Assembly (NCBI RefSeq): GCF_029027585.1
Contig: NZ_CP093397.1
Span: forward strand, 1,725,405-1,789,404
Direction: 5' to 3'
Origin: Sulfurimonas sp.
GTDB taxonomy: Bacteria > Campylobacterota > Campylobacteria > Campylobacterales > Sulfurimonadaceae
DNA length: 64,000 bases
This document shows positions 2,787-45,500 of this stretch, piece by piece. The notes under the pieces are model-generated. The model did no database searches. It had not been told where the DNA came from and worked only from the letters and a program-made list of their open reading frames with translations. The position numbers and the translations under genes were made by a program. Each line of letters begins with the position of its first letter. The stretch's first letter is position 1.

Positions 2787-2822
2787 TATTCATTTTCCTT
2801 TCCTGTTTTAGGAAAATGAATA
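2787..2822. terminator. 12-bp perfect hairpin, probable terminator of the porin gene
   Basis: The left arm 2787-2798 and right arm 2811-2822 (TATTCATTTTCC / GGAAAATGAATA) pair perfectly around a 12-nt loop and are followed by an AT-rich stretch. It lies 20 bp after the porin stop. The U-run is imperfect, so efficiency is uncertain. Confidence 0.65.
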
Positions 2823-2850
2823 TATTTATACATTTAGATATAATTTCATC

Positions 2851-22337: not shown

Positions 22338-24320
22338 TTAGAGTTTTTTTATTTTTACTATTTCATCACGCAGTCTAGCCGCTTCTTCAAAGTTTAATTC
22401 TTTTGCTGCTTTTTTCATTTTAAGTTGTAACTCTTTTGTTATCTCTTTTCTTTCTCTTGCTGGCATTTTATCCATTTTTTTATGCTTTTGGTAAATACCA
22501 CTATAATCTTCAACTTTTAAATTTTCATCTAGTTTACGAATAGTTGTTGTTGGAGTGATCCCATGCTTTAAATTATGTGCTTCTTGAATTTTTCTTCTTG
22601 AGCTTGTTGTATCTATTGCTTTTTGCATTGATTTTGTGATTTTATTGGCATATAAAATAACTCTACCATTAGAGTTCCTTGCACCACGACCTATGGTCTG
22701 AATGAGTGCAGTTTCACTTCTTAAAAACCCTTCTTTATCAGCATCTAGTATAGCAACTAAACTAACCTCTGGTAAGTCTAAACCCTCTCGAAGTAAATTT
22801 ATCCCGATGAGTACATCAAATTCACCAAGTCTTAGTGAGCGTATGATTTGATTTCGCTCGATTGTATCAATATCAGAGTGCATATACTGAGCTTTTACAC
22901 CTAAATCGGCTAAGTATTTTGTAAGAGCCTCAGCCATTTTTTTAGTAAGAACTGTAATCAAGATTCTTTCATTTTTAGCAGCTATCCCTATGATTTCATC
23001 ATGTATATCTTCTACTTGATTATCTGATGTTCTTATCTCTAGTATTGGGTCAAGAAGTCCAGTTGGACGGATTATTTGATGAGCTATTACACTTGACATT
23101 TCTAGTTCGTACTCAGCAGGTGTAGCTGAAACAAAAAGATAATGAGGTGCTTTGTTTATGTATTCTGCTGCCATTAAAGGACGGTTGTCAAGGGCGGAAG
23201 GAAGTCTAAAACCATAATCAACTAATACTTCTTTTCTAGCTCTATCTCCTGCGTACATTCCTCGATATTGAGGAAGTGAAACATGAGATTCATCAACTAT
23301 AATAAGATAATCTTGGTTTCTTTGAGTAAAATAATCAAGTAAAGTAAAAGGGGCTTCTCCCATTTTTTTGTTTGTAAGTAATCTTGAGTAATTTTCAACT
23401 CCCTTACACATGCCCGTAGTTTGTAGCATCTCTAAGTCAAACTCAACTCTTTGTTTAAGCCTTTGATGTTCTAAAAGTTTTCCCTCTTTTGTAAAATAAG
23501 CTAATCTTTCATCAAGTTCTTCTTCAATGCGTTTAATAGCAACTGCCATTTTCTCTTGTGAAACGCTAAATTGTGAGCATGCATATATAGTAAATTTTTT
23601 GTGTTCTTCTAGTCTTTTGTTGTCAATAATATCAAAGGTATAAATAGCTTCTATTTCATCACCAAAAAACTCTATGCGAATGGCTTCTTGTTCAAAGTAG
23701 GGTGGATAAATATCAAGACTCTCACCATTTACGCGTATGTGCCCACTGTCAAAATAAGTATCGTTTCTAGCATAACCCATTTCAACTAAACGAAGTAGAA
23801 GTTTTTTTTGGTTTATTTCATCGCCCACCTCTAAAGCTTGAACCATATTTAAGTATTCTTCTGGGTCACCAAGACCATAGTTGGCAGATACAGATGCTAT
23901 GACAATAACATTATCATAAGAAAGAAGATTTGCAGTTGAAGATAGCCTCATACGCTCTAGCTCATCATTAATAGCACTATCTTTTTCTATAAACAAATCT
24001 TGACGAGGTATATAAGCCTCAGGCTGATAATAATCATAGTAAGATACAAAGTATTCAACATGAGCATCAGGAAAGAAACCACGAAACTCTGAGTAAAGTT
24101 GAGCAGCTAAAGTTTTGTTATGAGTCATAATGATAGTAGGCATCTTAACATTCTCTATAACCTTAGCCATAGTGTATGTTTTACCACTACCTGTGACCCC
24201 TTCTAGGGTTTGGTAGCGATTACCTTTTAGTATAGATGCACTTAACTCTTTTATAGCAGTAGGCTGGTCACCAGCTGGTTCATATGGAGTATGTGCTTTA
24301 AAGTTTATCTCTTTTTTCAT
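22338..24320 (-). CDS. uvrB: UvrABC excinuclease subunit B
   Basis: UvrB verifies DNA lesions handed over by UvrA and recruits UvrC in nucleotide excision repair. The 660-residue protein has the Walker A motif GVTGSGKT (41-48), the damage-probing beta-hairpin [12 protein letters not shown] (about 93-104), the helicase motifs of superfamily 2 (DESHVS, TATPAEYE-like [17 protein letters not shown]), and the C-terminal UVR domain ([20 protein letters not shown]) that contacts UvrC. It is full length. Its first roughly 105 codons plus upstream sequence are duplicated at 25203-25552, so the promoter region now in use was probably replaced or copied during insertion of the toxin-antitoxin pair. Confidence 0.98.
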
Positions 24321-24357
24321 TGGTGGAATTATAGCTGATTAGTGTGAATATGAGTGA
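24008..24357. repeat. uvrB 5' end, copy attached to the intact gene
   Basis: About 350 bp covering codons 1-105 of uvrB and about 37 bp upstream, repeated in the same orientation at 25203-25552 with an offset of 1195 bp and only a few mismatches in the coding part (for example RGF versus RSF). Sequence from 24358 to 24594 shows no gene. Confidence 0.9.
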
Positions 24358-24594
24358 TATTTAAGTATTTTTTAGAGATATGGATGTCTATATGCTGCCG
24401 AGAAAGTTAAGTTTATATTTAAAAGTTAGTTTATAAATTTTTAAACGCTACAATATCTCTTCGTATCGAAGATTTTACGGTCTGAGTCTTTAAATCGATG
24501 TTATTGCGTTTTATATTGATTATACTAATGGCTCTAGTTCTTGTACTAAGAGCAAATTTCACAAAGTAAACTAAAAGCTTGGCTATCTTACTTA

Positions 24595-24867
24595 TTATCT
24601 ATCTTGCCATTTGAAAATATCTAAAACTTTTATCTCATCATCTTCAACTTTATAAATAATGGTATAACCTTTAAAAATTAAATCTCTGTATTTTGTATCT
24701 TGAAAATAAATAGATGATCTACACATAAAAGGAGATTCCAGTAGTAGTTTGATTTTTTCTTTTAAATCTTTATTGAATTTTTTAGAAGCTGATTTTTTAT
24801 CTTTTGCAATAGTTGTTAATATTTTAAATAGTGGGTCAGAGAAACCTATCTCGATTATAATTTTCAA
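24595..24867 (-). CDS. RelE/ParE-family toxin
   Basis: A 90-residue protein with the size and fold pattern of RelE/ParE toxins: N-terminal helices rich in Lys and the strand-rich C terminus YRDLIFKGYTIIYKVEDDEIKVLDIFKWQDR (about 60-90; conserved Arg and hydrophobic strands). RelE members cleave mRNA in the ribosome, ParE members poison gyrase; the sequence alone does not decide. The antitoxin gene lies 1 bp upstream on the same strand. Confidence 0.8.
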   Translation of the reverse strand: MKIIIEIGFSDPLFKILTTIAKDKKSASKKFNKDLKEKIKLLLESPFMCRSSIYFQDTKYRDLIFKGYTIIYKVEDDEIKVLDIFKWQDR

Positions 24868-25128: not shown

Positions 25129-25515
25129 TTAAGTCATTATAGCTAAAAGATATAAATATACTTTTGAACTAATCTGTTTAAATTTTGCAACTAACCGAGA
25201 GTGTATATAAGCCTCAGGCTGATAATAATCATAGTAAGATACAAAGTATTCAACATGAGCATCAGGAAAGAAACTACGAAACTCTGAGTAAAGTTGAGCA
25301 GCTAAAGTTTTATTATGAGTCATAATGATAGTAGGCATCTTAACATTCTCTATAACCTTAGCCATAGTGTATGTTTTACCACTCCCTGTAACCCCTTCTA
25401 GGGTTTGGTAGCGATTACCTTTTAGTATAGATGCACTTAACTCTTTTATAGCAGTAGGCTGGTCACCAGCTGGTTCATATGGAGTATGTGCTTTAAAGTT
25501 TATCTCTTTTTTCAT
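25129..25515 (-). pseudogene. Truncated uvrB copy (first about 105 codons)
   Basis: The first 105 residues are almost identical to UvrB (22338-24320), including the Walker A motif, then the frame runs into unrelated sequence after EAYI and stops after 23 more residues. It lacks all later helicase motifs and cannot be a functional UvrB. It retains the ATG and upstream sequence, so it may still be transcribed and could drive the antitoxin and toxin genes that follow it on the same strand. Confidence 0.92.
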
Positions 25516-25552
25516 TGGTGGAATTATAGCTGATTTGTGTGAATAGGAGTGT
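25203..25552. repeat. uvrB 5' end, distal copy
   Basis: Second copy of the 24008-24357 repeat, same orientation. Together the two copies bracket about 850 bp containing the toxin-antitoxin pair. Confidence 0.9.
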
Positions 25553-25660
25553 TTTTTACTTGTTTTTAAGAGATTTTACTGTGAAAATTTTGTCGATATA
25601 CTCTCCTCTTTCTTAGATAATATTTAGATATACTTAGATTAAATAAACAAGGTATATTTG

Positions 25661-25740: not shown

Positions 25741-27840
25741 ATGCAAACACTTATTTTACTACTTACAAAAAAAACTTCCCTCAAACAAGAACATATTGAA
25801 AATATTTTAAAACTACTAGATGATGGTTCTACTATCCCTTTCATAGCAAGATACAGAAAAGAAATGACTGGAGATGCCAGTGATGAAACACTTCGTGAGT
25901 TTGAGACTATCTATCTTAGTAATAAAAAGCTTCTTGAGAGAAAAAGTGAAGTATCAAGACTCATCCAAGAGAGAGCTACTCTTAGTGAAATTATAAAGCA
26001 AAGTATAGACAAGGCTGAAACTCTTAGAGAACTTGAAAATATTTATAGACCATATAAAGAAAAAAAGAACACAAGAGCAATCTCGGCTATTTCAAATGGT
26101 TTAACCCCCTTAGCAAATACTCTTCAAAGTGCAAGACTCTCTTTGGTAGAATTTAATTCTCAAGCAAAAAAATTTATAAGTAAAAATATTAAAACTGCGG
26201 ATGAAGCTACCCAAGGTGCTAAAGATATTTTAGCTGAGAGATATGCGGATAAACCAAGAGAGCGAGAAGCTATCAGAAACAGTATGTTGAGATTTGGTAG
26301 TCTTATAACTAAAGCTACAAAGACTTTTCAAGAAAATGGTACATATAAAAACTTAGCAAATAAAAGTGAAAAAGTTGCATATATCCCATCACATAGATAT
26401 TTGGCAATTATGAGAGCTGTTAAAGAAAAAGAGTTAAGAGTTAAGATAAGTATTGACACAGATAAAATATTTGAAAATATAAAGCAGTATAAAATTCCGC
26501 AACATGCTGCTTCCTCTTCTTCGATACTGTTTGAGGCATATAAAGATGGTTTTAAACGATTACTTTTCCCCTCTCTTGAGAGAGAGATTTTTTCAGAGTT
26601 AAAAGAAAAAGCAGACTTAGCATCTATTAATATCTTTGGTAAGAATCTAAGTCAATTATTAATTAGCAGACCAGTAGCTAATAGGGTTATTTTAGGTGTT
26701 GACCCTGCGTTTGTAAGTGGATGTAAATTGGCTGTAATAGATGAAAATGGGAACTATTTAGAGTCTAGTGTTATATACCCGACTAAGCCAAAAGAAGATT
26801 ATAACTCTTCAAAAACAAAAGTTCTTCAACTTTCAAAAAAATACAATATAACAGGTGTAGCAATAGGTAATGGAACAGCATCTAGAGAAACTCAAGAGTT
26901 TTTTGCACGACTCAATCGTGATGAAAATGCAAACTTAAACTATACGGTAGTTTCTGAAGCGGGGGCATCTGTATATAGTGCTTCTAAACTTGCTCAAGAT
27001 GAGTATCCTACTCTTGATGTAACCATTCGAGGTGCTATTTCAATCGCTCAAAGACTTCGTGACCCAATGGCAACATTAGTAAAAATTGATCCTAAATCAT
27101 TAGGAATAGGTCAATATCAACATGATGTAGATCAAAAGCTTCTAAAAAAAAGACTTGATGATGTTACTTGTGATATGGTAAATAGAGTAGGGGTAGATAT
27201 CAACTCAGCATCTGCTGCTTTACTCTCTCATGTTGCAGGGATTGGAAAGAGGATTGCTAAAAATATTATTGAGTATAGAGATGCCAATGGAAATTTCACA
27301 ACAAAAAATCAACTCCTTTGTGTTAAGGGTTTAGGTAAAAAAGCGTATGAACAAGCAGTTGGTTTTATAAGAATAAAAAATTCTAAAAATATATTTGATA
27401 ATAGCGGTATTCATCCTGAAAGTTATGAGATTGCTAAAAAAATAATAGATATAGATTTTCATGAGATTAATCTCGAAAATAAAGCAAAAGAATTAGGAAT
27501 AGGAGAACAAACACTCAAAGATATAATCCAAGAGCTTAAAAAACCAGGATTTGATCCACGAGAAGGTTTACCAACTATACCTTTTAAAGAGGGTCTTACA
27601 GATATTAAAATGCTTCAAGAAGGAAGTTTAGTAAGTGGTATTGTTCGTAATATTACTGATTTTGGAGCATTTGTAGATATAGGACTGAAAAATGATGGAA
27701 TGATTCATATATCTAAAATGAGTGAAAAAAGAATTAAGCATCCTTTAGAAGTACTTTCTTTAAATCAATATCTTCCTCAGGTTAAAGTTGTATCTATTGA
27801 ATTTGAAAAAGGAAAAGTTGGGTTAAGTTTAATATTATGA
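25741..27840 (+). CDS. Tex-family RNA-binding transcription accessory protein
   Basis: A 699-residue cytoplasmic protein of the Tex/YhgF family: N-terminal helical region (STIPFIARYRKEMTG, about 32-46), a YqgF/RNase H-like central domain (LGVDPAFVSGCKLAVID), helix-hairpin-helix pair (VDINSASAALLSHVAGIGKR; LLCVKGLGKKAYEQAVGFIR) and a C-terminal S1 RNA-binding domain (GSLVSGIVRNITDFGAFVDI). Tex binds nucleic acids and influences transcription; its exact role is unsettled. The start lies 6 bp after the hemerythrin stub and has a weak ribosome site, so it may be coupled to that stub's translation and promoter. Confidence 0.93.
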   Translation: MQTLILLLTKKTSLKQEHIENILKLLDDGSTIPFIARYRKEMTGDASDETLREFETIYLSNKKLLERKSEVSRLIQERATLSEIIKQSIDKAETLRELENIYRPYKEKKNTRAISAISNGLTPLANTLQSARLSLVEFNSQAKKFISKNIKTADEATQGAKDILAERYADKPREREAIRNSMLRFGSLITKATKTFQENGTYKNLANKSEKVAYIPSHRYLAIMRAVKEKELRVKISIDTDKIFENIKQYKIPQHAASSSSILFEAYKDGFKRLLFPSLEREIFSELKEKADLASINIFGKNLSQLLISRPVANRVILGVDPAFVSGCKLAVIDENGNYLESSVIYPTKPKEDYNSSKTKVLQLSKKYNITGVAIGNGTASRETQEFFARLNRDENANLNYTVVSEAGASVYSASKLAQDEYPTLDVTIRGAISIAQRLRDPMATLVKIDPKSLGIGQYQHDVDQKLLKKRLDDVTCDMVNRVGVDINSASAALLSHVAGIGKRIAKNIIEYRDANGNFTTKNQLLCVKGLGKKAYEQAVGFIRIKNSKNIFDNSGIHPESYEIAKKIIDIDFHEINLENKAKELGIGEQTLKDIIQELKKPGFDPREGLPTIPFKEGLTDIKMLQEGSLVSGIVRNITDFGAFVDIGLKNDGMIHISKMSEKRIKHPLEVLSLNQYLPQVKVVSIEFEKGKVGLSLIL

Positions 27841-28398
27841 AAATAACTTTTTCATGGCTGTAAAAAATAGTTTAAATAAACCTTTATTTCCAACTAGGTT
27901 ATTTACAAAATCATCATAAGTTGTATTGTTTTCTTCTAAAAATTCTCGCAGATATTTTTCACTGGCTTCCATACCTTCATCTTGTTCTATTTCTAAAAGT
28001 TTGGCATAGATAGGAATCATAGTATCTATAGCTTTTCTAGGTGCAGCTTTTCTAAAGGCAGTGTGTGAGATTATCTCATTTGTGATAGGATCTACTTTTG
28101 GCTCAAAATCTGTCACAACCCAGTAGTAACTTCCATCCTTGGCTAAGTTCTTAACAACTGCAATGAAATTTTTAGCTTGTTTAATCCTGTCCCACATTAG
28201 TTTAAAGGCAATTTTTGGCATGTCTGGATGTCTTACAATTGAGTGTGCTTTACCTAAAAGTTCAGCTTCTGAATAACCTGAAATCTCGACAAAATAGTCA
28301 TTACCGTACACTATAATCCCTTTTGGATCTGTTTTAGAGACTATATACCTTTTTGAACTTAGTTTTATTTCATTATTATTTGGTTCAGGGTGTTGCAC
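27835..28398 (-). CDS. PAS-domain sensory protein (Aer/CetB-like)
   Basis: A 187-residue soluble protein with one PAS domain at the N terminus (about residues 15-120): TDPKGIIVYGNDYFVEISGYSEAELLGKAHSIVRHPDMPKIAF is the aerotaxis-type PAS pattern seen in Aer and Campylobacter CetB, which bind FAD. A helical C-terminal region follows, but no methyl-accepting domain, so it would need a partner receptor, as CetB needs CetA. It overlaps the end of tex by 6 bp (convergent) and is divergent from a CZB-domain gene. Role in energy taxis is inferred. Confidence 0.8.
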   Translation of the reverse strand: MQHPEPNNNEIKLSSKRYIVSKTDPKGIIVYGNDYFVEISGYSEAELLGKAHSIVRHPDMPKIAFKLMWDRIKQAKNFIAVVKNLAKDGSYYWVVTDFEPKVDPITNEIISHTAFRKAAPRKAIDTMIPIYAKLLEIEQDEGMEASEKYLREFLEENNTTYDDFVNNLVGNKGLFKLFFTAMKKLFS

Positions 28399-28490: not shown

Positions 28491-28934
28491 ATGGATAAAA
28501 TAAAAACATTAGAATCAATACAAAATGCAAGAAGATCTCATGAAGCTCAAATGAGTAAAATTAAAACAGCAATAGACGGGGATAAAGTAGATGATCCAAC
28601 CGCAGTTGCGAAGACCAAATGTGCTTTTGGTATGTGGCTATATGATGATGAAAATCATTTGCGAAATATTTTAGGCTCACTGTTCTATGATAAGATGGAA
28701 GAATTACATGCCAAATGGCATAATGAGTATTTTAAATTATTTAATATATTTTTTAAGGAAGAGAAAAAAAGTTTTTTCTCGAAAATAATTGGCTCTTCTA
28801 ATGTTAGCGAGATGGAGTTAGATAAGGCGAAGCTTTACTACTCAGAACTTGAAGAAACTACACAAAAACTTTTAAAAGTTTTAGGCTCTTCTGAACGAAG
28901 AATTAGTGCTTTGCCGGAGTCTAAATTTCATTAA
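28491..28934 (+). CDS. CZB-domain protein (chemoreceptor zinc-binding domain)
   Basis: A 147-residue soluble protein whose N-terminal about 90 residues match the CZB domain: ARRSHEAQMSKIKTAIDG (with the first His), KCAFGMWLY (Cys then Gly-x-Trp-Leu), and FYDKMEELHAKWHNEYF (the two further His). The conserved 3 His / 1 Cys set binds zinc, and free CZB proteins modulate chemoreceptors or diguanylate cyclases. No other signalling domain follows. It is divergent from the PAS protein gene, suggesting a shared taxis or redox-sensing task (inference). Confidence 0.85.
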   Translation: MDKIKTLESIQNARRSHEAQMSKIKTAIDGDKVDDPTAVAKTKCAFGMWLYDDENHLRNILGSLFYDKMEELHAKWHNEYFKLFNIFFKEEKKSFFSKIIGSSNVSEMELDKAKLYYSELEETTQKLLKVLGSSERRISALPESKFH

Positions 28935-28973
28935 AATCAGATATTACAAGGCCTCTGAAGATAAAAGGAAAAA

Positions 28974-30017
28974 ATGCAAGACTTACAAGAATATCCAAAA
29001 TCTTTAGAAGGCTCAAAGTCACTGTTAGCAAAATACCTAAGCAAAGAAGTCTTCGAAGAGTTAAAAGATAAAGTAACATCTAATGGTTTTACATTGATTC
29101 AAGCAATTAACTCAGGTGTACAAAACCCTGATAGTGGGATTGGTGCTTATGTTGGAGATGAGGAATCTTATGAAGTATTTGCGGCACTATTTGATCCTAT
29201 TATAGAAGAATATCATGGATTTAAGAAAGAAGATAAACATCAAAGTAACTTAAATCCAGATGATTTAAATGCTCCAAATGCAGATCCAACTGATGAATAT
29301 ATATTATCTACAAGAATCCGTGTTGGTAGAAATATAAAAAACATACCTCTTGGACCTGCCATAAGTAATGAACAAAGAGATGCAATAGAAAAAGATGTAT
29401 CTGAAGTTTTAAGTGGTTTTGATAATAGTTTAGGGGGTAAATACTATCCTTTAAATAATATGAGTGAAGAGGATAGCAAATCACTGATTCAAGATCACTT
29501 TTTATTTAAAGCAGGAGATAGGTTTCTTGAAACGGCAGGCTTAAATAGAAACTGGCCAAATGGAAGAGGCATTTTTCACAACAATGAAAAAACATTTTTA
29601 GTCTGGATAAATGAAGAAGATGAACTTCGTATTATCTCAATGCAACAAGGTGGAAATATAAAAGAGGTATTTGTCAGACTTGTAACTGCTATAGATGCCT
29701 TGTCTGAAAAATTTGAATTTGCTTATAACGACCACTTAGGTTATATCACCAGTTGTCCAACAAATCTTGGAACTGCAATGAGAGCTAGTGTTCATATTAA
29801 GCTTCCAAATTTGGGAGATAAAATGGATGAATTTAAAACTATTGCAGATAAATATCATGTTCAAATAAGAGGTATTCATGGTGAGCATTCCCAGAGTGAA
29901 GGTGGTGTTTATGATATATCAAATAAAAGAAGATTAGGTGTTAGCGAGGTTGAATGTGTACAAGATATGTATGATGGTGTAGTCGCGCTGATAAAAAGAG
30001 AAAAAGAGTTGTCTTAG
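28974..30017 (+). CDS. Phosphagen kinase (arginine-kinase-like ATP:guanido phosphotransferase)
   Basis: Reversibly moves phosphate between ATP and a guanidino compound, probably arginine, as an energy buffer. The 347-residue protein contains both domains of animal-type arginine kinase: the N-terminal substrate loop (SGIGAYVGDEESY, 54-66) and the C-terminal catalytic domain with STRIRVGRN (112-120), WINEEDELR (211-219), CPTNLGTAMRASVHIKLPNL (261-280, catalytic Cys261) and GEH...SEGGVYDISNKRRLG. The N-terminal domain separates it from the bacterial McsB protein-arginine kinases, which lack it. Such enzymes occur in only scattered bacteria and suggest horizontal transfer. Neighbours (CZB protein 40 bp upstream) give no pathway hint. 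Confidence 0.93.
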   Translation: MQDLQEYPKSLEGSKSLLAKYLSKEVFEELKDKVTSNGFTLIQAINSGVQNPDSGIGAYVGDEESYEVFAALFDPIIEEYHGFKKEDKHQSNLNPDDLNAPNADPTDEYILSTRIRVGRNIKNIPLGPAISNEQRDAIEKDVSEVLSGFDNSLGGKYYPLNNMSEEDSKSLIQDHFLFKAGDRFLETAGLNRNWPNGRGIFHNNEKTFLVWINEEDELRIISMQQGGNIKEVFVRLVTAIDALSEKFEFAYNDHLGYITSCPTNLGTAMRASVHIKLPNLGDKMDEFKTIADKYHVQIRGIHGEHSQSEGGVYDISNKRRLGVSEVECVQDMYDGVVALIKREKELS

Positions 30018-30089: not shown

Positions 30090-30556
30090 GTAATAATTTA
30101 TTTATTCTCCTATTATTACAATATTAAATTATTTTTGGAGAGATATCATGGCAACAGATGTAGCAATAGTAAGCAGTTTAGAAGGTAAATTTTTTGCAAA
30201 AGATCAAGATGGAAATGTAGTAGAGCTGAAGAATGGCGATACAATTTCTAAAGATATGACTGTTTTTGGAGATAAAAATAATCCTGCATCTGCAAATATT
30301 AAATTTGTTATGAATGATGGTGCTAATGAAATTGTTTTAACTGGAACTCAAGAACAAGCTTTTGATAGTTCTTTAAATGATGAACCAAGCCATGAAAGTG
30401 GTTTATCTAAAGAAAGCATAGAAAAAGCACTGATAAAAGAATTGTATGCTCAAGAAGATAAGACAGATACAAAAGAAGAAGATTTAGGTATCTTGGATGA
30501 AACAGCAGCTGGTGAAGAACAAGCAAAACAAAATGAAGGTGGAGAAGGGCAGTTTG
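30073..30556 (+). repeat. Shared leader plus retention-module segment, copy 1
   Basis: 484 bp almost identical to 47932-48415 with no indels (constant offset 17859), spanning about 75 bp of leader and the first about 136 codons of each adhesin. The main differences are in codons 3-7. This points to recent duplication or ongoing gene conversion between the two adhesin genes. Confidence 0.9.
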
Positions 30557-33500
30557 TAGATAGAGATGCTATACAAACAGATGTAACTACAAAACTTAGA
30601 AGTAATAAATTTGAGTTAGATGAAAAACCACAAGAAGTTGAAAGAAAACTAATTGTAGAGCAAGAAGAAGATGGTAAAGTAGTAGATACAACAGCAACTG
30701 GAGCTCCAACAGTAACAATCACTGAAGATACAAACAATGATGGAAGTTTAGTTAACTCAGAAATCTCAGGTGATACAGATATAAGTATTGCTTTACCAGC
30801 TGGAGCATTAGCAGGTGATACTCTAAATGTAACTATAGATGGAGTAACTACTACAGTTACAATTACAGATGCAATGATAACTGCAAAGGTTTATACAACA
30901 AGTGTAACAACTCCTGCAGAAGGTGTAACTCTAAATGTAAGTGCAACAATTACTGACCAAGCTGGAAATACTTCAACTTCTTCAAGTGACTCAGCAACAA
31001 GAGCAGACCAAACAGCAACTGGAGCTCCAACAGTAACAATCACTGAAGATACAAACAATGATGGAAGTTTAGTTAACTCAGAAATCTCAGGTGATACAGA
31101 TATAAGTATTGCTTTACCAGCTGGAGCATTAGCAGGTGATACTCTAAATGTAACTATAGATGGAGTAACTACTACAGTTACAATTACAGATGCAATGATA
31201 ACTGCAAAGGTTTATACAACAAGTGTAACAACTCCTGCAGAAGGTGTAACTCTAAATGTAAGTGCAACAATTACTGACCAAGCTGGAAATACTTCAACTT
31301 CTTCAAGTGACTCAGCAACAAGAGCAGACCAAACAGCAACTGGAGCTCCAACAGTAACAATCACTGAAGATACAAACAATGATGGAAGTTTAGTTAACTC
31401 AGAAATCTCAGGTGATACAGATATAAGTATTGCTTTACCAGCTGGAGCATTAGCAGGTGATACTCTAAATGTAACTATAGATGGAGTAACTACTACAGTT
31501 ACAATTACAGATGCAATGATAACTGCAAAGGTTTATACAACAAGTGTAACAACTCCTGCAGAAGGTGTAACTCTAAATGTAAGTGCAACAATTACTGACC
31601 AAGCTGGAAATACTTCAACTTCTTCAAGTGACTCAGCAACAAGAGCAGACCAAACAGCAACTGGAGCTCCAACAGTAACAATCACTGAAGATACAAACAA
31701 TGATGGAAGTTTAGTTAACTCAGAAATCTCAGGTGATACAGATATAAGTATTGCTTTACCAGCTGGAGCATTAGCAGGTGATACTCTAAATGTAACTATA
31801 GATGGAGTAACTACTACAGTTACAATTACAGATGCAATGATAACTGCAAAGGTTTATACAACAAGTGTAACAACTCCTGCAGAAGGTGTAACTCTAAATG
31901 TAAGTGCAACAATTACTGACCAAGCTGGAAATACTTCAACTTCTTCAAGTGACTCAGCAACAAGAGCAGACCAAACAGCAACTGGAGCTCCAACAGTAAC
32001 AATCACTGAAGATACAAACAATGATGGAAGTTTAGTTAACTCAGAAATCTCAGGTGATACAGATATAAGTATTGCTTTACCAGCTGGAGCATTAGCAGGT
32101 GATACTCTAAATGTAACTATAGATGGAGTAACTACTACAGTTACAATTACAGATGCAATGATAACTGCAAAGGTTTATACAACAAGTGTAACAACTCCTG
32201 CAGAAGGTGTAACTCTAAATGTAAGTGCAACAATTACTGACCAAGCTGGAAATACTTCAACTTCTTCAAGTGACTCAGCAACAAGAGCAGACCAAACAGC
32301 AACTGGAGCTCCAACAGTAACAATCACTGAAGATACAAACAATGATGGAAGTTTAGTTAACTCAGAAATCTCAGGTGATACAGATATAAGTATTGCTTTA
32401 CCAGCTGGAGCATTAGCAGGTGATACTCTAAATGTAACTATAGATGGAGTAACTACTACAGTTACAATTACAGATGCAATGATAACTGCAAAGGTTTATA
32501 CAACAAGTGTAACAACTCCTGCAGAAGGTGTAACTCTAAATGTAAGTGCAACAATTACTGACCAAGCTGGAAATACTTCAACTTCTTCAAGTGACTCAGC
32601 AACAAGAGCAGACCAAACAGCAACTGGAGCTCCAACAGTAACAATCACTGAAGATACAAACAATGATGGAAGTTTAGTTAACTCAGAAATCTCAGGTGAT
32701 ACAGATATAAGTATTGCTTTACCAGCTGGAGCATTAGCAGGTGATACTCTAAATGTAACTATAGATGGAGTAACTACTACAGTTACAATTACAGATGCAA
32801 TGATAACTGCAAAGGTTTATACAACAAGTGTAACAACTCCTGCAGAAGGTGTAACTCTAAATGTAAGTGCAACAATTACTGACCAAGCTGGAAATACTTC
32901 AACTTCTTCAAGTGACTCAGCAACAAGAGCAGACCAAACAGCAACTGGAGCTCCAACAGTAACAATCACTGAAGATACAAACAATGATGGAAGTTTAGTT
33001 AACTCAGAAATCTCAGGTGATACAGATATAAGTATTGCTTTACCAGCTGGAGCATTAGCAGGTGATACTCTAAATGTAACTATAGATGGAGTAACTACTA
33101 CAGTTACAATTACAGATGCAATGATAACTGCAAAGGTTTATACAACAAGTGTAACAACTCCTGCAGAAGGTGTAACTCTAAATGTAAGTGCAACAATTAC
33201 TGACCAAGCTGGAAATACTTCAACTTCTTCAAGTGACTCAGCAACAAGAGCAGACCAAACAGCAACTGGAGCTCCAACAGTAACAATCACTGAAGATACA
33301 AACAATGATGGAAGTTTAGTTAACTCAGAAATCTCAGGTGATACAGATATAAGTATTGCTTTACCAGCTGGAGCATTAGCAGGTGATACTCTAAATGTAA
33401 CTATAGATGGAGTAACTACTACAGTTACAATTACAGATGCAATGATAACTGCAAAGGTTTATACAACAAGTGTAACAACTCCTGCAGAAGGTGTAACTCT

Positions 33501-36500
33501 AAATGTAAGTGCAACAATTACTGACCAAGCTGGAAATACTTCAACTTCTTCAAGTGACTCAGCAACAAGAGCAGACCAAACAGCAACTGGAGCTCCAACA
33601 GTAACAATCACTGAAGATACAAACAATGATGGAAGTTTAGTTAACTCAGAAATCTCAGGTGATACAGATATAAGTATTGCTTTACCAGCTGGAGCATTAG
33701 CAGGTGATACTCTAAATGTAACTATAGATGGAGTAACTACTACAGTTACAATTACAGATGCAATGATAACTGCAAAGGTTTATACAACAAGTGTAACAAC
33801 TCCTGCAGAAGGTGTAACTCTAAATGTAAGTGCAACAATTACTGACCAAGCTGGAAATACTTCAACTTCTTCAAGTGACTCAGCAACAAGAGCAGACCAA
33901 ACAGCAACTGGAGCTCCAACAGTAACAATCACTGAAGATACAAACAATGATGGAAGTTTAGTTAACTCAGAAATCTCAGGTGATACAGATATAAGTATTG
34001 CTTTACCAGCTGGAGCATTAGCAGGTGATACTCTAAATGTAACTATAGATGGAGTAACTACTACAGTTACAATTACAGATGCAATGATAACTGCAAAGGT
34101 TTATACAACAAGTGTAACAACTCCTGCAGAAGGTGTAACTCTAAATGTAAGTGCAACAATTACTGACCAAGCTGGAAATACTTCAACTTCTTCAAGTGAC
34201 TCAGCAACAAGAGCAGACCAAACAGCAACTGGAGCTCCAACAGTAACAATCACTGAAGATACAAACAATGATGGAAGTTTAGTTAACTCAGAAATCTCAG
34301 GTGATACAGATATAAGTATTGCTTTACCAGCTGGAGCATTAGCAGGTGATACTCTAAATGTAACTATAGATGGAGTAACTACTACAGTTACAATTACAGA
34401 TGCAATGATAACTGCAAAGGTTTATACAACAAGTGTAACAACTCCTGCAGAAGGTGTAACTCTAAATGTAAGTGCAACAATTACTGACCAAGCTGGAAAT
34501 ACTTCAACTTCTTCAAGTGACTCAGCAACAAGAGCAGACCAAACAGCAACTGGAGCTCCAACAGTAACAATCACTGAAGATACAAACAATGATGGAAGTT
34601 TAGTTAACTCAGAAATCTCAGGTGATACAGATATAAGTATTGCTTTACCAGCTGGAGCATTAGCAGGTGATACTCTAAATGTAACTATAGATGGAGTAAC
34701 TACTACAGTTACAATTACAGATGCAATGATAACTGCAAAGGTTTATACAACAAGTGTAACAACTCCTGCAGAAGGTGTAACTCTAAATGTAAGTGCAACA
34801 ATTACTGACCAAGCTGGAAATACTTCAACTTCTTCAAGTGACTCAGCAACAAGAGCAGACCAAACAGCAACTGGAGCTCCAACAGTAACAATCACTGAAG
34901 ATACAAACAATGATGGAAGTTTAGTTAACTCAGAAATCTCAGGTGATACAGATATAAGTATTGCTTTACCAGCTGGAGCATTAGCAGGTGATACTCTAAA
35001 TGTAACTATAGATGGAGTAACTACTACAGTTACAATTACAGATGCAATGATAACTGCAAAGGTTTATACAACAAGTGTAACAACTCCTGCAGAAGGTGTA
35101 ACTCTAAATGTAAGTGCAACAATTACTGACCAAGCTGGAAATACTTCAACTTCTTCAAGTGACTCAGCAACAAGAGCAGACCAAACAGCAACTGGAGCTC
35201 CAACAGTAACAATCACTGAAGATACAAACAATGATGGAAGTTTAGTTAACTCAGAAATCTCAGGTGATACAGATATAAGTATTGCTTTACCAGCTGGAGC
35301 ATTAGCAGGTGATACTCTAAATGTAACTATAGATGGAGTAACTACTACAGTTACAATTACAGATGCAATGATAACTGCAAAGGTTTATACAACAAGTGTA
35401 ACAACTCCTGCAGAAGGTGTAACTCTAAATGTAAGTGCAACAATTACTGACCAAGCTGGAAATACTTCAACTTCTTCAAGTGACTCAGCAACAAGAGCAG
35501 ACCAAACAGCAACTGGAGCTCCAACAGTAACAATCACTGAAGATACAAACAATGATGGAAGTTTAGTTAACTCAGAAATCTCAGGTGATACAGATATAAG
35601 TATTGCTTTACCAGCTGGAGCATTAGCAGGTGATACTCTAAATGTAACTATAGATGGAGTAACTACTACAGTTACAATTACAGATGCAATGATAACTGCA
35701 AAGGTTTATACAACAAGTGTAACAACTCCTGCAGAAGGTGTAACTCTAAATGTAAGTGCAACAATTACTGACCAAGCTGGAAATACTTCAACTTCTTCAA
35801 GTGACTCAGCAACAAGAGCAGACCAAACAGCAACTGGAGCTCCAACAGTAACAATCACTGAAGATACAAACAATGATGGAAGTTTAGTTAACTCAGAAAT
35901 CTCAGGTGATACAGATATAAGTATTGCTTTACCAGCTGGAGCATTAGCAGGTGATACTCTAAATGTAACTATAGATGGAGTAACTACTACAGTTACAATT
36001 ACAGATGCAATGATAACTGCAAAGGTTTATACAACAAGTGTAACAACTCCTGCAGAAGGTGTAACTCTAAATGTAAGTGCAACAATTACTGACCAAGCTG
36101 GAAATACTTCAACTTCTTCAAGTGACTCAGCAACAAGAGCAGACCAAACAGCAACTGGAGCTCCAACAGTAACAATCACTGAAGATACAAACAATGATGG
36201 AAGTTTAGTTAACTCAGAAATCTCAGGTGATACAGATATAAGTATTGCTTTACCAGCTGGAGCATTAGCAGGTGATACTCTAAATGTAACTATAGATGGA
36301 GTAACTACTACAGTTACAATTACAGATGCAATGATAACTGCAAAGGTTTATACAACAAGTGTAACAACTCCTGCAGAAGGTGTAACTCTAAATGTAAGTG
36401 CAACAATTACTGACCAAGCTGGAAATACTTCAACTTCTTCAAGTGACTCAGCAACAAGAGCAGACCAAACAGCAACTGGAGCTCCAACAGTAACAATCAC

Positions 36501-39500
36501 TGAAGATACAAACAATGATGGAAGTTTAGTTAACTCAGAAATCTCAGGTGATACAGATATAAGTATTGCTTTACCAGCTGGAGCATTAGCAGGTGATACT
36601 CTAAATGTAACTATAGATGGAGTAACTACTACAGTTACAATTACAGATGCAATGATAACTGCAAAGGTTTATACAACAAGTGTAACAACTCCTGCAGAAG
36701 GTGTAACTCTAAATGTAAGTGCAACAATTACTGACCAAGCTGGAAATACTTCAACTTCTTCAAGTGACTCAGCAACAAGAGCAGACCAAACAGCAACTGG
36801 AGCTCCAACAGTAACAATCACTGAAGATACAAACAATGATGGAAGTTTAGTTAACTCAGAAATCTCAGGTGATACAGATATAAGTATTGCTTTACCAGCT
36901 GGAGCATTAGCAGGTGATACTCTAAATGTAACTATAGATGGAGTAACTACTACAGTTACAATTACAGATGCAATGATAACTGCAAAGGTTTATACAACAA
37001 GTGTAACAACTCCTGCAGAAGGTGTAACTCTAAATGTAAGTGCAACAATTACTGACCAAGCTGGAAATACTTCAACTTCTTCAAGTGACTCAGCAACAAG
37101 AGCAGACCAAACAGCAACTGGAGCTCCAACAGTAACAATCACTGAAGATACAAACAATGATGGAAGTTTAGTTAACTCAGAAATCTCAGGTGATACAGAT
37201 ATAAGTATTGCTTTACCAGCTGGAGCATTAGCAGGTGATACTCTAAATGTAACTATAGATGGAGTAACTACTACAGTTACAATTACAGATGCAATGATAA
37301 CTGCAAAGGTTTATACAACAAGTGTAACAACTCCTGCAGAAGGTGTAACTCTAAATGTAAGTGCAACAATTACTGACCAAGCTGGAAATACTTCAACTTC
37401 TTCAAGTGACTCAGCAACAAGAGCAGACCAAACAGCAACTGGAGCTCCAACAGTAACAATCACTGAAGATACAAACAATGATGGAAGTTTAGTTAACTCA
37501 GAAATCTCAGGTGATACAGATATAAGTATTGCTTTACCAGCTGGAGCATTAGCAGGTGATACTCTAAATGTAACTATAGATGGAGTAACTACTACAGTTA
37601 CAATTACAGATGCAATGATAACTGCAAAGGTTTATACAACAAGTGTAACAACTCCTGCAGAAGGTGTAACTCTAAATGTAAGTGCAACAATTACTGACCA
37701 AGCTGGAAATACTTCAACTTCTTCAAGTGACTCAGCAACAAGAGCAGACCAAACAGCAACTGGAGCTCCAACAGTAACAATCACTGAAGATACAAACAAT
37801 GATGGAAGTTTAGTTAACTCAGAAATCTCAGGTGATACAGATATAAGTATTGCTTTACCAGCTGGAGCATTAGCAGGTGATACTCTAAATGTAACTATAG
37901 ATGGAGTAACTACTACAGTTACAATTACAGATGCAATGATAACTGCAAAGGTTTATACAACAAGTGTAACAACTCCTGCAGAAGGTGTAACTCTAAATGT
38001 AAGTGCAACAATTACTGACCAAGCTGGAAATACTTCAACTTCTTCAAGTGACTCAGCAACAAGAGCAGACCAAACAGCAACTGGAGCTCCAACAGTAACA
38101 ATCACTGAAGATACAAACAATGATGGAAGTTTAGTTAACTCAGAAATCTCAGGTGATACAGATATAAGTATTGCTTTACCAGCTGGAGCATTAGCAGGTG
38201 ATACTCTAAATGTAACTATAGATGGAGTAACTACTACAGTTACAATTACAGATGCAATGATAACTGCAAAGGTTTATACAACAAGTGTAACAACTCCTGC
38301 AGAAGGTGTAACTCTAAATGTAAGTGCAACAATTACTGACCAAGCTGGAAATACTTCAACTTCTTCAAGTGACTCAGCAACAAGAGCAGACCAAACAGCA
38401 ACTGGAGCTCCAACAGTAACAATCACTGAAGATACAAACAATGATGGAAGTTTAGTTAACTCAGAAATCTCAGGTGATACAGATATAAGTATTGCTTTAC
38501 CAGCTGGAGCATTAGCAGGTGATACTCTAAATGTAACTATAGATGGAGTAACTACTACAGTTACAATTACAGATGCAATGATAACTGCAAAGGTTTATAC
38601 AACAAGTGTAACAACTCCTGCAGAAGGTGTAACTCTAAATGTAAGTGCAACAATTACTGACCAAGCTGGAAATACTTCAACTTCTTCAAGTGACTCAGCA
38701 ACAAGAGCAGACCAAACAGCAACTGGAGCTCCAACAGTAACAATCACTGAAGATACAAACAATGATGGAAGTTTAGTTAACTCAGAAATCTCAGGTGATA
38801 CAGATATAAGTATTGCTTTACCAGCTGGAGCATTAGCAGGTGATACTCTAAATGTAACTATAGATGGAGTAACTACTACAGTTACAATTACAGATGCAAT
38901 GATAACTGCAAAGGTTTATACAACAAGTGTAACAACTCCTGCAGAAGGTGTAACTCTAAATGTAAGTGCAACAATTACTGACCAAGCTGGAAATACTTCA
39001 ACTTCTTCAAGTGACTCAGCAACAAGAGCAGACCAAACAGCAACTGGAGCTCCAACAGTAACAATCACTGAAGATACAAACAATGATGGAAGTTTAGTTA
39101 ACTCAGAAATCTCAGGTGATACAGATATAAGTATTGCTTTACCAGCTGGAGCATTAGCAGGTGATACTCTAAATGTAACTATAGATGGAGTAACTACTAC
39201 AGTTACAATTACAGATGCAATGATAACTGCAAAGGTTTATACAACAAGTGTAACAACTCCTGCAGAAGGTGTAACTCTAAATGTAAGTGCAACAATTACT
39301 GACCAAGCTGGAAATACTTCAACTTCTTCAAGTGACTCAGCAACAAGAGCAGACCAAACAGCAACTGGAGCTCCAACAGTAACAATCACTGAAGATACAA
39401 ACAATGATGGAAGTTTAGTTAACTCAGAAATCTCAGGTGATACAGATATAAGTATTGCTTTACCAGCTGGAGCATTAGCAGGTGATACTCTAAATGTAAC

Positions 39501-42500
39501 TATAGATGGAGTAACTACTACAGTTACAATTACAGATGCAATGATAACTGCAAAGGTTTATACAACAAGTGTAACAACTCCTGCAGAAGGTGTAACTCTA
39601 AATGTAAGTGCAACAATTACTGACCAAGCTGGAAATACTTCAACTTCTTCAAGTGACTCAGCAACAAGAGCAGACCAAACAGCAACTGGAGCTCCAACAG
39701 TAACAATCACTGAAGATACAAACAATGATGGAAGTTTAGTTAACTCAGAAATCTCAGGTGATACAGATATAAGTATTGCTTTACCAGCTGGAGCATTAGC
39801 AGGTGATACTCTAAATGTAACTATAGATGGAGTAACTACTACAGTTACAATTACAGATGCAATGATAACTGCAAAGGTTTATACAACAAGTGTAACAACT
39901 CCTGCAGAAGGTGTAACTCTAAATGTAAGTGCAACAATTACTGACCAAGCTGGAAATACTTCAACTTCTTCAAGTGACTCAGCAACAAGAGCAGACCAAA
40001 CAGCAACTGGAGCTCCAACAGTAACAATCACTGAAGATACAAACAATGATGGAAGTTTAGTTAACTCAGAAATCTCAGGTGATACAGATATAAGTATTGC
40101 TTTACCAGCTGGAGCATTAGCAGGTGATACTCTAAATGTAACTATAGATGGAGTAACTACTACAGTTACAATTACAGATGCAATGATAACTGCAAAGGTT
40201 TATACAACAAGTGTAACAACTCCTGCAGAAGGTGTAACTCTAAATGTAAGTGCAACAATTACTGACCAAGCTGGAAATACTTCAACTTCTTCAAGTGACT
40301 CAGCAACAAGAGCAGACCAAACAGCAACTGGAGCTCCAACAGTAACAATCACTGAAGATACAAACAATGATGGAAGTTTAGTTAACTCAGAAATCTCAGG
40401 TGATACAGATATAAGTATTGCTTTACCAGCTGGAGCATTAGCAGGTGATACTCTAAATGTAACTATAGATGGAGTAACTACTACAGTTACAATTACAGAT
40501 GCAATGATAACTGCAAAGGTTTATACAACAAGTGTAACAACTCCTGCAGAAGGTGTAACTCTAAATGTAAGTGCAACAATTACTGACCAAGCTGGAAATA
40601 CTTCAACTTCTTCAAGTGACTCAGCAACAAGAGCAGACCAAACAGCAACTGGAGCTCCAACAGTAACAATCACTGAAGATACAAACAATGATGGAAGTTT
40701 AGTTAACTCAGAAATCTCAGGTGATACAGATATAAGTATTGCTTTACCAGCTGGAGCATTAGCAGGTGATACTCTAAATGTAACTATAGATGGAGTAACT
40801 ACTACAGTTACAATTACAGATGCAATGATAACTGCAAAGGTTTATACAACAAGTGTAACAACTCCTGCAGAAGGTGTAACTCTAAATGTAAGTGCAACAA
40901 TTACTGACCAAGCTGGAAATACTTCAACTTCTTCAAGTGACTCAGCAACAAGAGCAGACCAAACAGCAACTGGAGCTCCAACAGTAACAATCACTGAAGA
41001 TACAAACAATGATGGAAGTTTAGTTAACTCAGAAATCTCAGGTGATACAGATATAAGTATTGCTTTACCAGCTGGAGCATTAGCAGGTGATACTCTAAAT
41101 GTAACTATAGATGGAGTAACTACTACAGTTACAATTACAGATGCAATGATAACTGCAAAGGTTTATACAACAAGTGTAACAACTCCTGCAGAAGGTGTAA
41201 CTCTAAATGTAAGTGCAACAATTACTGACCAAGCTGGAAATACTTCAACTTCTTCAAGTGACTCAGCAACAAGAGCAGACCAAACAGCAACTGGAGCTCC
41301 AACAGTAACAATCACTGAAGATACAAACAATGATGGAAGTTTAGTTAACTCAGAAATCTCAGGTGATACAGATATAAGTATTGCTTTACCAGCTGGAGCA
41401 TTAGCAGGTGATACTCTAAATGTAACTATAGATGGAGTAACTACTACAGTTACAATTACAGATGCAATGATAACTGCAAAGGTTTATACAACAAGTGTAA
41501 CAACTCCTGCAGAAGGTGTAACTCTAAATGTAAGTGCAACAATTACTGACCAAGCTGGAAATACTTCAACTTCTTCAAGTGACTCAGCAACAAGAGCAGA
41601 CCAAACAGCAACTGGAGCTCCAACAGTAACAATCACTGAAGATACAAACAATGATGGAAGTTTAGTTAACTCAGAAATCTCAGGTGATACAGATATAAGT
41701 ATTGCTTTACCAGCTGGAGCATTAGCAGGTGATACTCTAAATGTAACTATAGATGGAGTAACTACTACAGTTACAATTACAGATGCAATGATAACTGCAA
41801 AGGTTTATACAACAAGTGTAACAACTCCTGCAGAAGGTGTAACTCTAAATGTAAGTGCAACAATTACTGACCAAGCTGGAAATACTTCAACTTCTAGTTC
41901 TGATAGTGTTACAAGAAATTGTTCTCCAGAAGCTCAAGACAGTAATATTACTTTAAACGAAGACACAACATATACATACAAGTTATCTGATTTTAATCAC
42001 AATGATGTAGATGGTGATGCTATTAGTATAATTAGAATAGAATCTTTACCTACTTTAGGTGACCTTTACTATAATGGAATACTTGTTAGTTCTCCTGGCT
42101 TAGAAATAGATGCCTCAAATATAGGGTTACTTACATATAAACCATATGAGAATGATTCAGGTTCTGATGATTATTCTACTCAAGGTGTTGGGGAACAACA
42201 GAGTGATTATGCAAACTTTAATTTTAGTGTAAATGATGGAGATACATGGAGTAATTCAGTATCTGTTATGACAGTTGATGTTACTGCCGTGGCAGATGCT
42301 CCGACACTAGATATTACGAGTGCTACAACTACTAATCAGTTAATAACAATGGGAAATGTAAATACTACAAATAACGGATTTGAGATTAGTGCTAAAAAAG
42401 CAGATGGTTCAGACTCAACTATAAGCATTAACCAACAACAAGATGGATTTGGTGTTAAAGGTTCAGCTTCTGGTGCAGATAGTGAGTTAGGGCATGAAGA

Positions 42501-45500
42501 ATCACTTGTTGTAAAATTTGATACAGATGTATCGTCTATTGATGTTTCTTTTTCATGGAAGCATAGTAGCGAAACAGCTAGGATTACATTTTACAAAGAT
42601 GGTGTAGTAGTTGGTACCGCTACTCATAAAGGTGGTAGTAATGGTGTAGATGCTCCTGTTACATTTAAACCTGATAATGGTGCAAAATTTGATAAGGTTG
42701 TATTTAGTGCTCCTAATTCAGGGGATGATTATCTTATTCACTCTATAAGCTATGACAAAACTGAAACTGTGTCAAGTCCGTTAATTGTAGAGGAAGAAGA
42801 TTCTGTAGCATTTAGTATAGCTTCTGTTCTTACTGATGTAGATGGTTCAGAGTCTCTGAAAGTTGAGTTAACAGATATTCCTATTGGATTTACTATATCA
42901 GATGATACAAATTCGTTTACAGCAACTGCTTCAACAACCAGTGTAGATATTACAAACTGGGATAAAAGTACTCTTACCTTGATGACTACAAATGTATCTG
43001 ATACAACTACTTACACATTAAAGGTAGTCTCAACTAGCACAGAGTCTTCAAACGGAGATGTGGCTACTACAACTAAAGTTATTCAAGTAACAGTTACTGA
43101 TACTAAACCAACAGCAGTAGCTGATAATGACAGTGTTGGTTTTGGTGGTGAAGCACATGGTAATGTTATAACAGGTGATGGTGGTTTAAATGCTGATATA
43201 CTTGGAGAAGATTCAGTAGAACTTTCATCAATAACTTATGGAGGAACTACTTATTTATTTAATGGTAATAATACTATTACTATTAATGGAGCATATGGAG
43301 AGCTTATTATTAACAAAGATGGTAGTTATAGTTACGAATCAACGCAGAGCAACCCTATAGATGGCGTTTCAGAAGGATTTTCTTATACTATTATTGATTC
43401 AGATGGTGACAGTAGTAGTGCAATATTGACTATTAATCACGACAAAGACTTGACTCCAGTAAATGACACAGCAATTGTTAATGAGTCAGGATTATCTGAT
43501 GGAACAAATGCAGGCGCACCAACAGAGATAGTCACAGGAAATTTACTTGATAACGATAATGGAGTAGGTGCAAACTCTTCAATAACAGAAATATCTAGTA
43601 GTGTTGATAGTGATAATAGTACTCAAGGGAATGGCATTTTAACAATAGATACTGAGCATGGTTCTATTACAGTTTATACGAAAGATTCAAATAGTCATAG
43701 AGCTGGTGATTACGAGTATGAGTTAACAGATGCATCAAGTGGTGATAATATTGTAGATAGTATAACTTATAGAACTGATGATGGAGATGGTACACAATCA
43801 ACAGCAACTTTAAATGTAAGTATTGTAGATGATGCACCGATAGGAACAAATATAAATGAAGCATTGCATGATACATCAGGGGATTCTTTAACAACTAACC
43901 TTATTATAGTTTTAGATAGATCAGGAAGCATGGGTTGGGATATTGATGGTAATAAATCAGATAATTCTGATTTTGATGCAGACCAAGTTCGTATGGATAT
44001 TGCAAAAGATGCACTAAAAAGTATGTTTGGTTCTTATGATAACTTAGGTAATGTAAATATCAAATTTGTTGATTTTTCAAGTGATGTTAATGAATCTGCT
44101 TGGTACAACGATGATGTTAATTCTGCAAATACTTACCTTGATGGTATAGATGCAGGTGGTGGAACTAGATATGATTCGGCTTTAAATGGTGTCATCGATG
44201 GGCATACTCAACCAGTTGCAGATAAAACCTTAGTTTACTTTATCTCAGATGGTGAGCCAAATAGTGGTCATGCAGTAGATGATACAGTTGTTTACGGTGG
44301 TTTAACTGGTAAGGCTGCTTGGGAAAATTTTTTAGATGACAATGGTGTAGATATATCTTATGGTATAGGGATTACAAATGGTGTTAGCCTAAGTAGTTTA
44401 GAGCCTGTTGCATATTCTAGTACAGATGGTAACACTGAACCTTATGCTATCAAAGTCTTAAATGCATTTGATTTAAAACAAACTCTACTTGATAGTGTTT
44501 CTGAAGGAGTTGTTCAAGGAGATGCATCTGCTCTTATTGGAAATGGGTCAGATGGTATAGTTCTTGGTGCTGATGGTGGTTCGATTACAAGTGTTGTTTA
44601 CAATGGAGTTACATATAGTAGTACAAGTGGAGATACAGTAAGCATTACAACTACGCATGGTGGTATTTTAGATATTAACTTTTCAACAGGGAAGTATATT
44701 TATACTATAAACTCTAACGAAAGTATAAGCGGCGAAAAAGATACATTCTCAGTTACAGCGACAGATGGAGATGGAGATACCAAAACAGTTGATTTAGTAA
44801 TTACGCTTGATTATGTGGCAGAGTTAGACGCTAATCGTGATTATGTAGTTACAAATACAACTGATGACTTAGTTATAGATGCAAGCCTATTAACACATAA
44901 TGACTCTGGAACAAACAGTATTGATTCAGTTGATGGAACTAATGTTACTTTTGCAAATAATGAAGTAACTCTAAGTAACAATGCAAATGCTTTTGAATAT
45001 ACAGTTTCAAATCCAGGTAGTAGTGACACAGCAAAAGTAGAAGTAAGTTACGAAACTGGAACTACTCTAAGTGGGACTGATAAAGCAGAAACTCTTATCG
45101 GTAGTGCAAATGATGACAGGATAGTTCTTGGTGGCAATGATATTGCAGTTGATGGTGCGGCTGGTCTTGATACACTCATTTTAGAAAATGGTGTTGATTT
45201 AGATTTCTCAGATACTAACATCGCAAGTATTATTAATGTAGAAAAAATTGATATGACTGATAATGGAGCGCACACTATAAGTAACTTATCATTAGATGAT
45301 ATTTTGGATATGACAGAACCTGGAAACAGTTTAGAAATTATAGGTGATAGTGACGATAAAATAGAAGACTTAGATACTGCTGGTTGGACTGAAACAGGAG
45401 ATACAACGGATAATGTATTTGAGTATAGTCGCGCAAATGCTGATGGTTCATCAGATAGCATAACATTAACAATAGATGAGCAAATAGATACAACAGGTAT

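Follow-up and report, generated by a model that had tools for sequence, protein, structure and literature searches.

An arginine-kinase-type phosphagen kinase in a Campylobacterota genome and the genes that accompany its relatives

Phosphagen buffering is textbook animal physiology, and many invertebrates store their spare energy as phospho-arginine. In bacteria, such buffering has been little studied, as far as the open-licence literature shows. Arginine kinases of Desulfotalea, Myxococcus, Moritella and Sulfurovum are listed in one article (PMC6429109), which cites Andrews 2008, Suzuki 2013 and Fannin 2018 and also lists Bragg 2012; the names given there include Sulfurovum lithotrophicum, Sulfurovum sp. 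and PE36. The same article presents the origin of the bacterial enzymes as a matter of debate, with either an ancient history or a transfer from eukaryotes (PMC6429109). Bacterial arginine kinases are already known, one of them, the Sulfurovum enzyme, from the same phylum as the gene studied here; the present species is a further occurrence. A dedicated paper on arginine kinase in Sulfurovum, Sulfurimonas, Epsilonproteobacteria or Campylobacterota was not found in the open-licence literature.

The gene is located on the plus strand at positions 28974-30017 of a stretch of 64,000 nucleotides, which at its full length is called the window. The ORF list, Pfam, the comparison with PDB sequences and the alignment all identify it as a gene for an arginine-kinase-type phosphagen kinase of 347 amino acids plus stop. 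ORF analysis gave an ATG start and an unbroken frame, and the opposite strand contains many stops in the same register. The purine-rich motif AAAAGGA, which resembles a ribosome-binding site and may act as one, lies 4 bases 5' of the ATG (28963-28969, plus strand). Pfam detected the N-terminal domain PF02807 at residues 14-78 (29013-29207, plus strand; E-value 1.8e-29; 102.5 bits, curated cut-off 25.7) and the catalytic domain PF00217 at residues 138-345 (29385-30008, plus strand; 3.1e-78; 262.3 bits, cut-off 22.4), and the product has the two-domain PF02807 plus PF00217 architecture of arginine kinases. The initial annotation of a full two-domain enzyme of this type in a Campylobacterota genome was borne out by both domains and by the nearest loci, which are labelled Sulfurimonas.

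When solved sequences were ranked by summed score, the double arginine kinase 4rf6 came first, followed by the double taurocyamine kinase 4wo8 and then by single arginine kinases; the organisms of the PDB entries compared are presumably sea anemone, T. cruzi, shrimp, Limulus and Schistosoma. With the halves of 4rf6 the window kinase shared a local identity of 58.2 and 57.1%, with 2j1q 57.0%, with 4bg4 54.4% and with 1m15 53.8%; for the creatine kinase 8ci4 it was 47.2%, for the domains of 4wo8 43.8 and 46.2%, and for 7ews, which is also called an arginine kinase, just 34.5%. With the metazoan and kinetoplastid arginine kinases (4rf6, 1m15, 4bg4 and 2j1q) the protein shares the domains, the active site and a full-length identity of 54-58%, and, judged by sequence, the enzyme is closely related to them. 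This level of identity to animal and kinetoplastid enzymes keeps cross-domain transfer a testable question. The window protein is a single 347-aa unit, whereas two such units are fused in 4rf6.

According to the alignment, the window kinase is identical to the Limulus arginine kinase at 18 of 19 positions that serve catalysis or substrate binding. In the substrate loop, D62, S63, G64, V65, G66 and Y68 of Limulus correspond to D53, S54, G55, I56, G57 and Y59, and V65 to I56 is the one exception. The further pairs are Y89/Y80, R124/R114, R126/R116, R193/R183, E225/E215, R229/R219, C271/C261, T273/T263, R280/R270, R309/R299, E314/E304, H315/H305 and D324/D314. Two positions beyond the 19 were also mapped, H185, which is identical (H175), and H227, which is replaced by E217; we know of no catalytic role of Limulus H227. 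In Limulus numbering, we take the catalytic set to be E225, C271, E314 and five phosphate-binding arginines, and its counterparts are all present in the window kinase (E215, C261, E304, R114, R116, R219, R270 and R299). The arginine-type substrate loop, which presumably comprises S63, G64, V65 and Y68 together with Y89, is represented by S54, G55, I56 as a conservative change, Y59 and Y80. The initial statement that all key residues are kept was correct for Cys261, the GEH motif and 18 of the 19 positions, but not for V65, which is Ile.

On the plus strand, the segment D53-S-G-I-G-A-Y59, which maps to Limulus D62-Y68 and presumably forms the guanidino substrate loop, is encoded at 29130-29150, the CPTNLGT motif with the reactive Cys261 (Limulus C271) and Thr263 at 29754-29774, and the G-E304-H motif (Limulus E314), placed by the alignment, at 29880-29888. 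When the window kinase was aligned with 40 relatives, CPTNLGT was identical in all 41 rows, and 18 of the 19 columns were invariant. The V65 column contained Ile in 41 of 41 rows, a difference of the campylobacterial proteins from the metazoan and kinetoplastid arginine kinases; the G64 column contained G in 31 rows, S in 9 and N in 1.

The window gene very probably encodes a soluble arginine kinase (EC 2.7.3.3) that would make phospho-arginine from ATP and free L-arginine as a reversible energy store (ATP + L-arginine <-> ADP + phospho-arginine). While ATP is plentiful, phospho-arginine would be formed by transfer of the gamma-phosphate to L-arginine, and when the supply drops, be it by fluctuation of oxidant or donor, by motility or during start-up after starvation, ATP would be returned from phospho-arginine. 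We infer the enzyme activity, arginine as the substrate and buffering as the physiological role. Substrate specificity in the phosphagen kinase family can shift, and with V65 being Ile and G64 varying among relatives, the true substrate might be another guanidino compound, such as taurocyamine, a lombricine-like compound, agmatine or D-arginine. This is improbable, as the substrate loop is of the arginine-kinase type with Y80 at the position of Limulus Y89, most arginine kinases in the comparison exceed the taurocyamine and creatine kinases in identity to the window kinase, and argB is linked to the kinase in relatives. The title of a paper cited in PMC7603314 refers to a D-arginine-specific arginine kinase.

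A second alternative is a protein-arginine kinase that, like McsB, acts on proteins. The catalytic domain of McsB is homologous to that of the window kinase, and NCBIfam McsB models match residues 101-346. However, all five models scored below their curated cut-offs, the best at 163.7 bits versus 385 (NF002194) and another at 146.5 versus 500 (NF053707). The identity to McsB was 32.3% over 229 residues, which cover the catalytic domain only, and the window kinase additionally carries PF02807. McsB membership was rejected on the grounds of the scores below the equivalog cut-offs, PF02807 at residues 14-78 and the low identity restricted to the catalytic domain, and the initial separation of the gene from McsB stood. 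In B. subtilis, mcsB is flanked by mcsA, ctsR and clpC, and inspection by eye revealed none of the three among the ORFs neighbouring the window kinase. Protein phosphorylation is thus an extremely improbable function, and arginine kinase remains the preferred reading. The host genome consists of one contig of 2,607,188 bases with a single match to PF00217, the window kinase itself, and therefore has no separate McsB.

The distribution of the kinase was found to be patchy. In the phylum sample, PF02807 matched in 19 of 397 genomes, and the kinase protein was present in 17 of the 135 genomes of the genus; it was not found in the other 118, and is therefore dispensable there. Since 55 non-redundant loci could be gathered, the initial description of bacterial examples as few and scattered applied to their scatter and not to their number. 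In the phylum of G501, only G501 matched (1/345), and in the phylum of G500, 4 of 349 genomes matched, G500 and three more divergent ones; because G500 and G501 were reached via loci labelled metagenome bins, mis-binned contigs are possible. The same protein as that of the window occurs in G426 (L050) of the same genus, and the protein of L002 (Sulfurimonas sp. OB8) is 89% identical; by these two matches, the host is very probably a Sulfurimonas.

Phylogenetic trees were used to trace the history of the gene. In a tree of 55 rows, the window kinase grouped with L039 of the same genus and with L002 (Sulfurimonas) at a support of 100/99, and a group of eight rows (99/98) had among its members one row from family f7 and one bin with the label Chlorobi. 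With weak support (85/59), 49 rows formed a set that took in every campylobacterial row, L025 and L026, the arginine kinases of animals and kinetoplastids, the 4wo8 domains and creatine kinase; outside this set fell L068, the Bandiella protein, McsB, and L069/L070 together with 7ews. Branches were long for creatine kinase, both domains of 4wo8, McsB, 7ews, L068 and the Bandiella protein. A reduced tree leaves out McsB, Bandiella, L068, 7ews, L069 and L070; in this tree, the animal and kinetoplastid rows, 4wo8 included, formed one group (93/75) that L026 adjoined (92/92), and creatine kinase joined weakly (53/77) beside a bacterial row. Both trees exclude L001, L027, L038, L047 and the duplicates L028 and L037. 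Rooting by creatine kinase or McsB failed to give the direction of transfer between bacteria and eukaryotes, owing to long branches, weak attachment and an unstable root.

Within the phylum, the picture was clearer. In a tree of 58 rows, 27 of which carried a genus label, this label required 6 changes, and well-supported branches forced at least 2 of them; same-genus rows grouped with rows of family f4 (96/96) and with Arcobacter-labelled rows (96/91). The gene therefore moves within the phylum, and these trees indicate that the scattered distribution arose at least partly by transfer inside Campylobacterota. Transfer had been thought likely from the outset; the tree groupings and the patchiness uphold it within the phylum, but the trees settle neither its direction nor its source.

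The proteins of L069/L070, of L068 (phylum of G500) and of the Ca. Bandiella plasmid (L071) are bacterial phosphagen kinases too, with PF02807 or full-length arginine-kinase matches, but they are 36.7-37.8% identical to the window kinase and lie outside the 49-row set that holds it. The L071 gene (5893-6990) belongs to Ca. Bandiella woodruffii (Rickettsiales; Euplotes woodruffi culture) and is annotated as a 'hypothetical protein'; it sits on a 72.7-kb plasmid beside transposase genes, and its product is 37% identical to the window kinase. L068 (664-1812) is part of the 1.3-Mb genome G1188, and its PDB matches were 4rf6 and 4wo8 first and creatine kinases next. Among plasmid and phage records, 21 and 9 matched, respectively, and none reached 60% identity to this kinase type. 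In the matches listed, the Ca. Bandiella plasmid was the one record that covered at least 80% of the query (36.5% identity), and the other 19 plasmid and 9 phage matches covered query residues 102-346 at most, i.e. the catalytic domain. A 720-base 'phosphagen kinase' ORF of a jumbo Vibrio phage is mentioned in PMC7765460.

Next to the kinase, several relatives carry argB. An argB frame was found upstream, on the same strand and within 600 bases of the kinase, in 10 of the 55 non-redundant loci (L008, L009, L011 with argB in two frames, L015, L019, L027, L044, L054, L057 and L065), and the kinases of these loci are 68-71% identical to that of the window. The adjacency was not seen in the other 45 loci, the window included; the sequence available upstream is shorter than 1 kb in L002, L003, L047 and L059, L038 and L047 come from the same genome as separate pieces, and one genome contributes both L060 and L065 as two copies. 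The argB product of L092, from the same genome as L054, is an acetylglutamate kinase (TIGR00761, 261.6 bits versus 151.3). On the kinase tree, from which rows shorter than 250 aa and duplicates were excluded and on which L010, L047 and L059 carry no argB label, the label was scattered with 8 changes, at least 5 of them forced by well-supported branches. In 72 of 500 shuffles the label was at least as clustered, so that one old linkage followed by losses is not separable from repeated gain.

Two full argB genes were present in G449, G208, G1200 (L008) and G1201 (L009), and one only in the genomes of L015, L019 and L027. In an argB tree of 18 rows, from which one row shorter than 200 aa (L111) was dropped, eight rows formed one branch (96/95). 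This branch contained six of the nine kinase-linked copies, those of G449, G208, L008, L009 and L065 and the split copy of L011; its remaining two rows were the full upstream copy of L011 and a contig-end piece of the L010 genome. In four out of four two-copy genomes, the other argB fell outside the branch, as did the remaining three kinase-linked copies, which are the single copies of L015, L019 and L027. In L011, the kinase-side argB is split in two frames (6823-7485), and the full copy of the same branch lies at 2800-3648, upstream of two-component genes. The host genome of the window kinase encodes argininosuccinate synthase and a single argB (C1:213601-214440), the latter distant from the kinase at C1:1754378. 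By analogy, the presence of argB beside the kinase in relatives that are spread over the tree points to free arginine as the substrate. The strongest substrate evidence is this analogy with relatives of 68-71% identity, because the window locus itself is without argB or two-component genes.

In some relatives, a two-component system is also found beside the kinase. The histidine kinase of L092 consists of four CBS domains and HATPase_c, and its partner is a regulator with a receiver domain and Trans_reg_C. Histidine kinases 49-56% identical to that of L092 are encoded upstream of the arginine kinase in L009, L010, L011 and L079, one of 93% identity over the piece present lies upstream in G461, and one of 46% identity lies downstream in L084. 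The searches of the genus and of the phylum scored 3 and 9 candidates per genome, respectively, among the rows shown. At 1e-70, histidine kinases of the L092 type were found in 2 of the 397 genomes of the phylum sample, G208 and G304. Each of these two genomes also has the arginine kinase gene, in the neighbourhood of the histidine kinase gene; the probability that two random genomes both fall among the 19 kinase-bearing ones is about 0.002 if relatedness is ignored. The CBS histidine kinase was not found in the other 17 of these 19 genomes. In the genus, it was present in 3 of 135 genomes, of which G449 and G461 have it beside the arginine kinase; for the third, G434, the match was at 36% identity, and an arginine kinase was not detected there in the search of the genus genomes.

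In L009 (5032-5295), L011 (7674-7922), L079 (2506-2745) and L092 (5944-6162), argB and the kinase have a small ORF of 73-88 aa between them. Its start falls on the last coding base of argB in three of these loci, with stop codons left out of the coordinates, and there it overlaps with the stop of argB. L008, L057 and L059 carry matches to the small ORF upstream of their kinase genes, and the small protein of L092 has no match in Pfam or NCBIfam. The window locus lacks this cassette, with neither argB nor the CBS histidine kinase and regulator beside the kinase, and the host genome (G000) gave no match to the CBS histidine kinase at 1e-70.

CBS domains often bind adenine nucleotides, and the CBS histidine kinase beside the cassette therefore suggests that the cassette may be regulated by energy state in the relatives, though not at the window locus. 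We tentatively propose, with less than even confidence, that Campylobacterota carry a mobile, self-contained phosphagen module and that the window gene, a derived copy, functions on its own. Such a module would pair the arginine kinase with a second N-acetylglutamate kinase (ArgB2) dedicated to its arginine supply, and would further include the small protein and the CBS histidine kinase with its OmpR-type regulator, which would read the adenine-nucleotide status and set the size of the phospho-arginine pool.

The linkage of the kinase to arginine synthesis and a two-component system in relatives is as compatible with a regulated store as with a buffer. The enzyme might thus serve mainly for storage of arginine or phosphate, for stress survival or as a developmental switch and not for short-term ATP buffering, and the patchy distribution of a non-essential gene agrees with such roles; a Myxococcus xanthus homologue is reportedly needed for fruiting body formation (Bragg 2012). 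We regard this main use as rather unlikely; the same chemistry would buffer ATP anyway, and the present data do not separate the two roles. For the window gene, the reversible energy store is preferred. The cassette in the relatives is a more interesting lead than the window enzyme itself: the association of argB and the CBS kinase gives an entry point to the question of how a phosphagen system might be supplied and regulated in bacteria, and no report of an argB or histidine-kinase association with arginine kinase was found in the open-licence literature.

The immediate surroundings of the window gene are of a different kind. A stand-alone CZB (chemoreceptor zinc-binding) protein of 147 aa is encoded at 28491-28934 on the plus strand, ending 39 bases upstream of the kinase ATG, and the two genes are possibly co-transcribed. 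Beyond it, Pfam identified a single PAS-domain protein of 187 aa (27835-28398, minus strand). The initial annotation had placed the kinase next to redox and energy-taxis genes, and PAS and CZB genes do adjoin it. CZB and PAS domains by themselves are no proof of energy taxis, and the CZB neighbour was found elsewhere only in L073, from the sister species G343, among 47 loci examined (some of them duplicates; the kinase ORF was called in 46, and that of L076 was recovered by tblastn). A conserved energy-taxis neighbourhood was rejected on this ground, and with a CZB gene beside the kinase in just a single further species, the link to energy taxis is weak.

The scattered occurrence of the kinase and the different neighbours in different clades might also be explained by a recently acquired, neutral passenger gene without function. 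This is very unlikely, given the intact frame, an active site that is invariant across distant relatives, and a sister species whose protein is 93% identical and has the same CZB neighbour. The composition fits the window as well, with a GC content of 33.0% versus 33.1% in the window and a GC3 of 18.7% versus 16.3-25.0% in five neighbour genes, and no compositional mark of recent transfer was seen in these comparisons. An arginine kinase in use by its host is therefore favoured over a passenger.

Between 28300 and 30200, 8 promoter-like sites were predicted versus a mean of 10.0 in shuffled sequences, and 2 terminator-like sites, both on the minus strand, versus 0.6. Downstream of the kinase, a giant repeat protein of 5118 aa is encoded at 30148-45504, which we take to resemble a secreted adhesin; a unit of 107 aa occurs in it 34 times letter for letter (30694 to 41607). 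On the other side, a 376-bp 5' part of uvrB is duplicated at 96.5% identity (24005-24379 and 25199-25574; full uvrB 22338-24320), and a gene for a ParE-family toxin (PF05016) lies between the copies at 24595-24867 on the minus strand. By its sequence, this arrangement of uvrB duplicate and toxin gene looks like an insertion with duplication.
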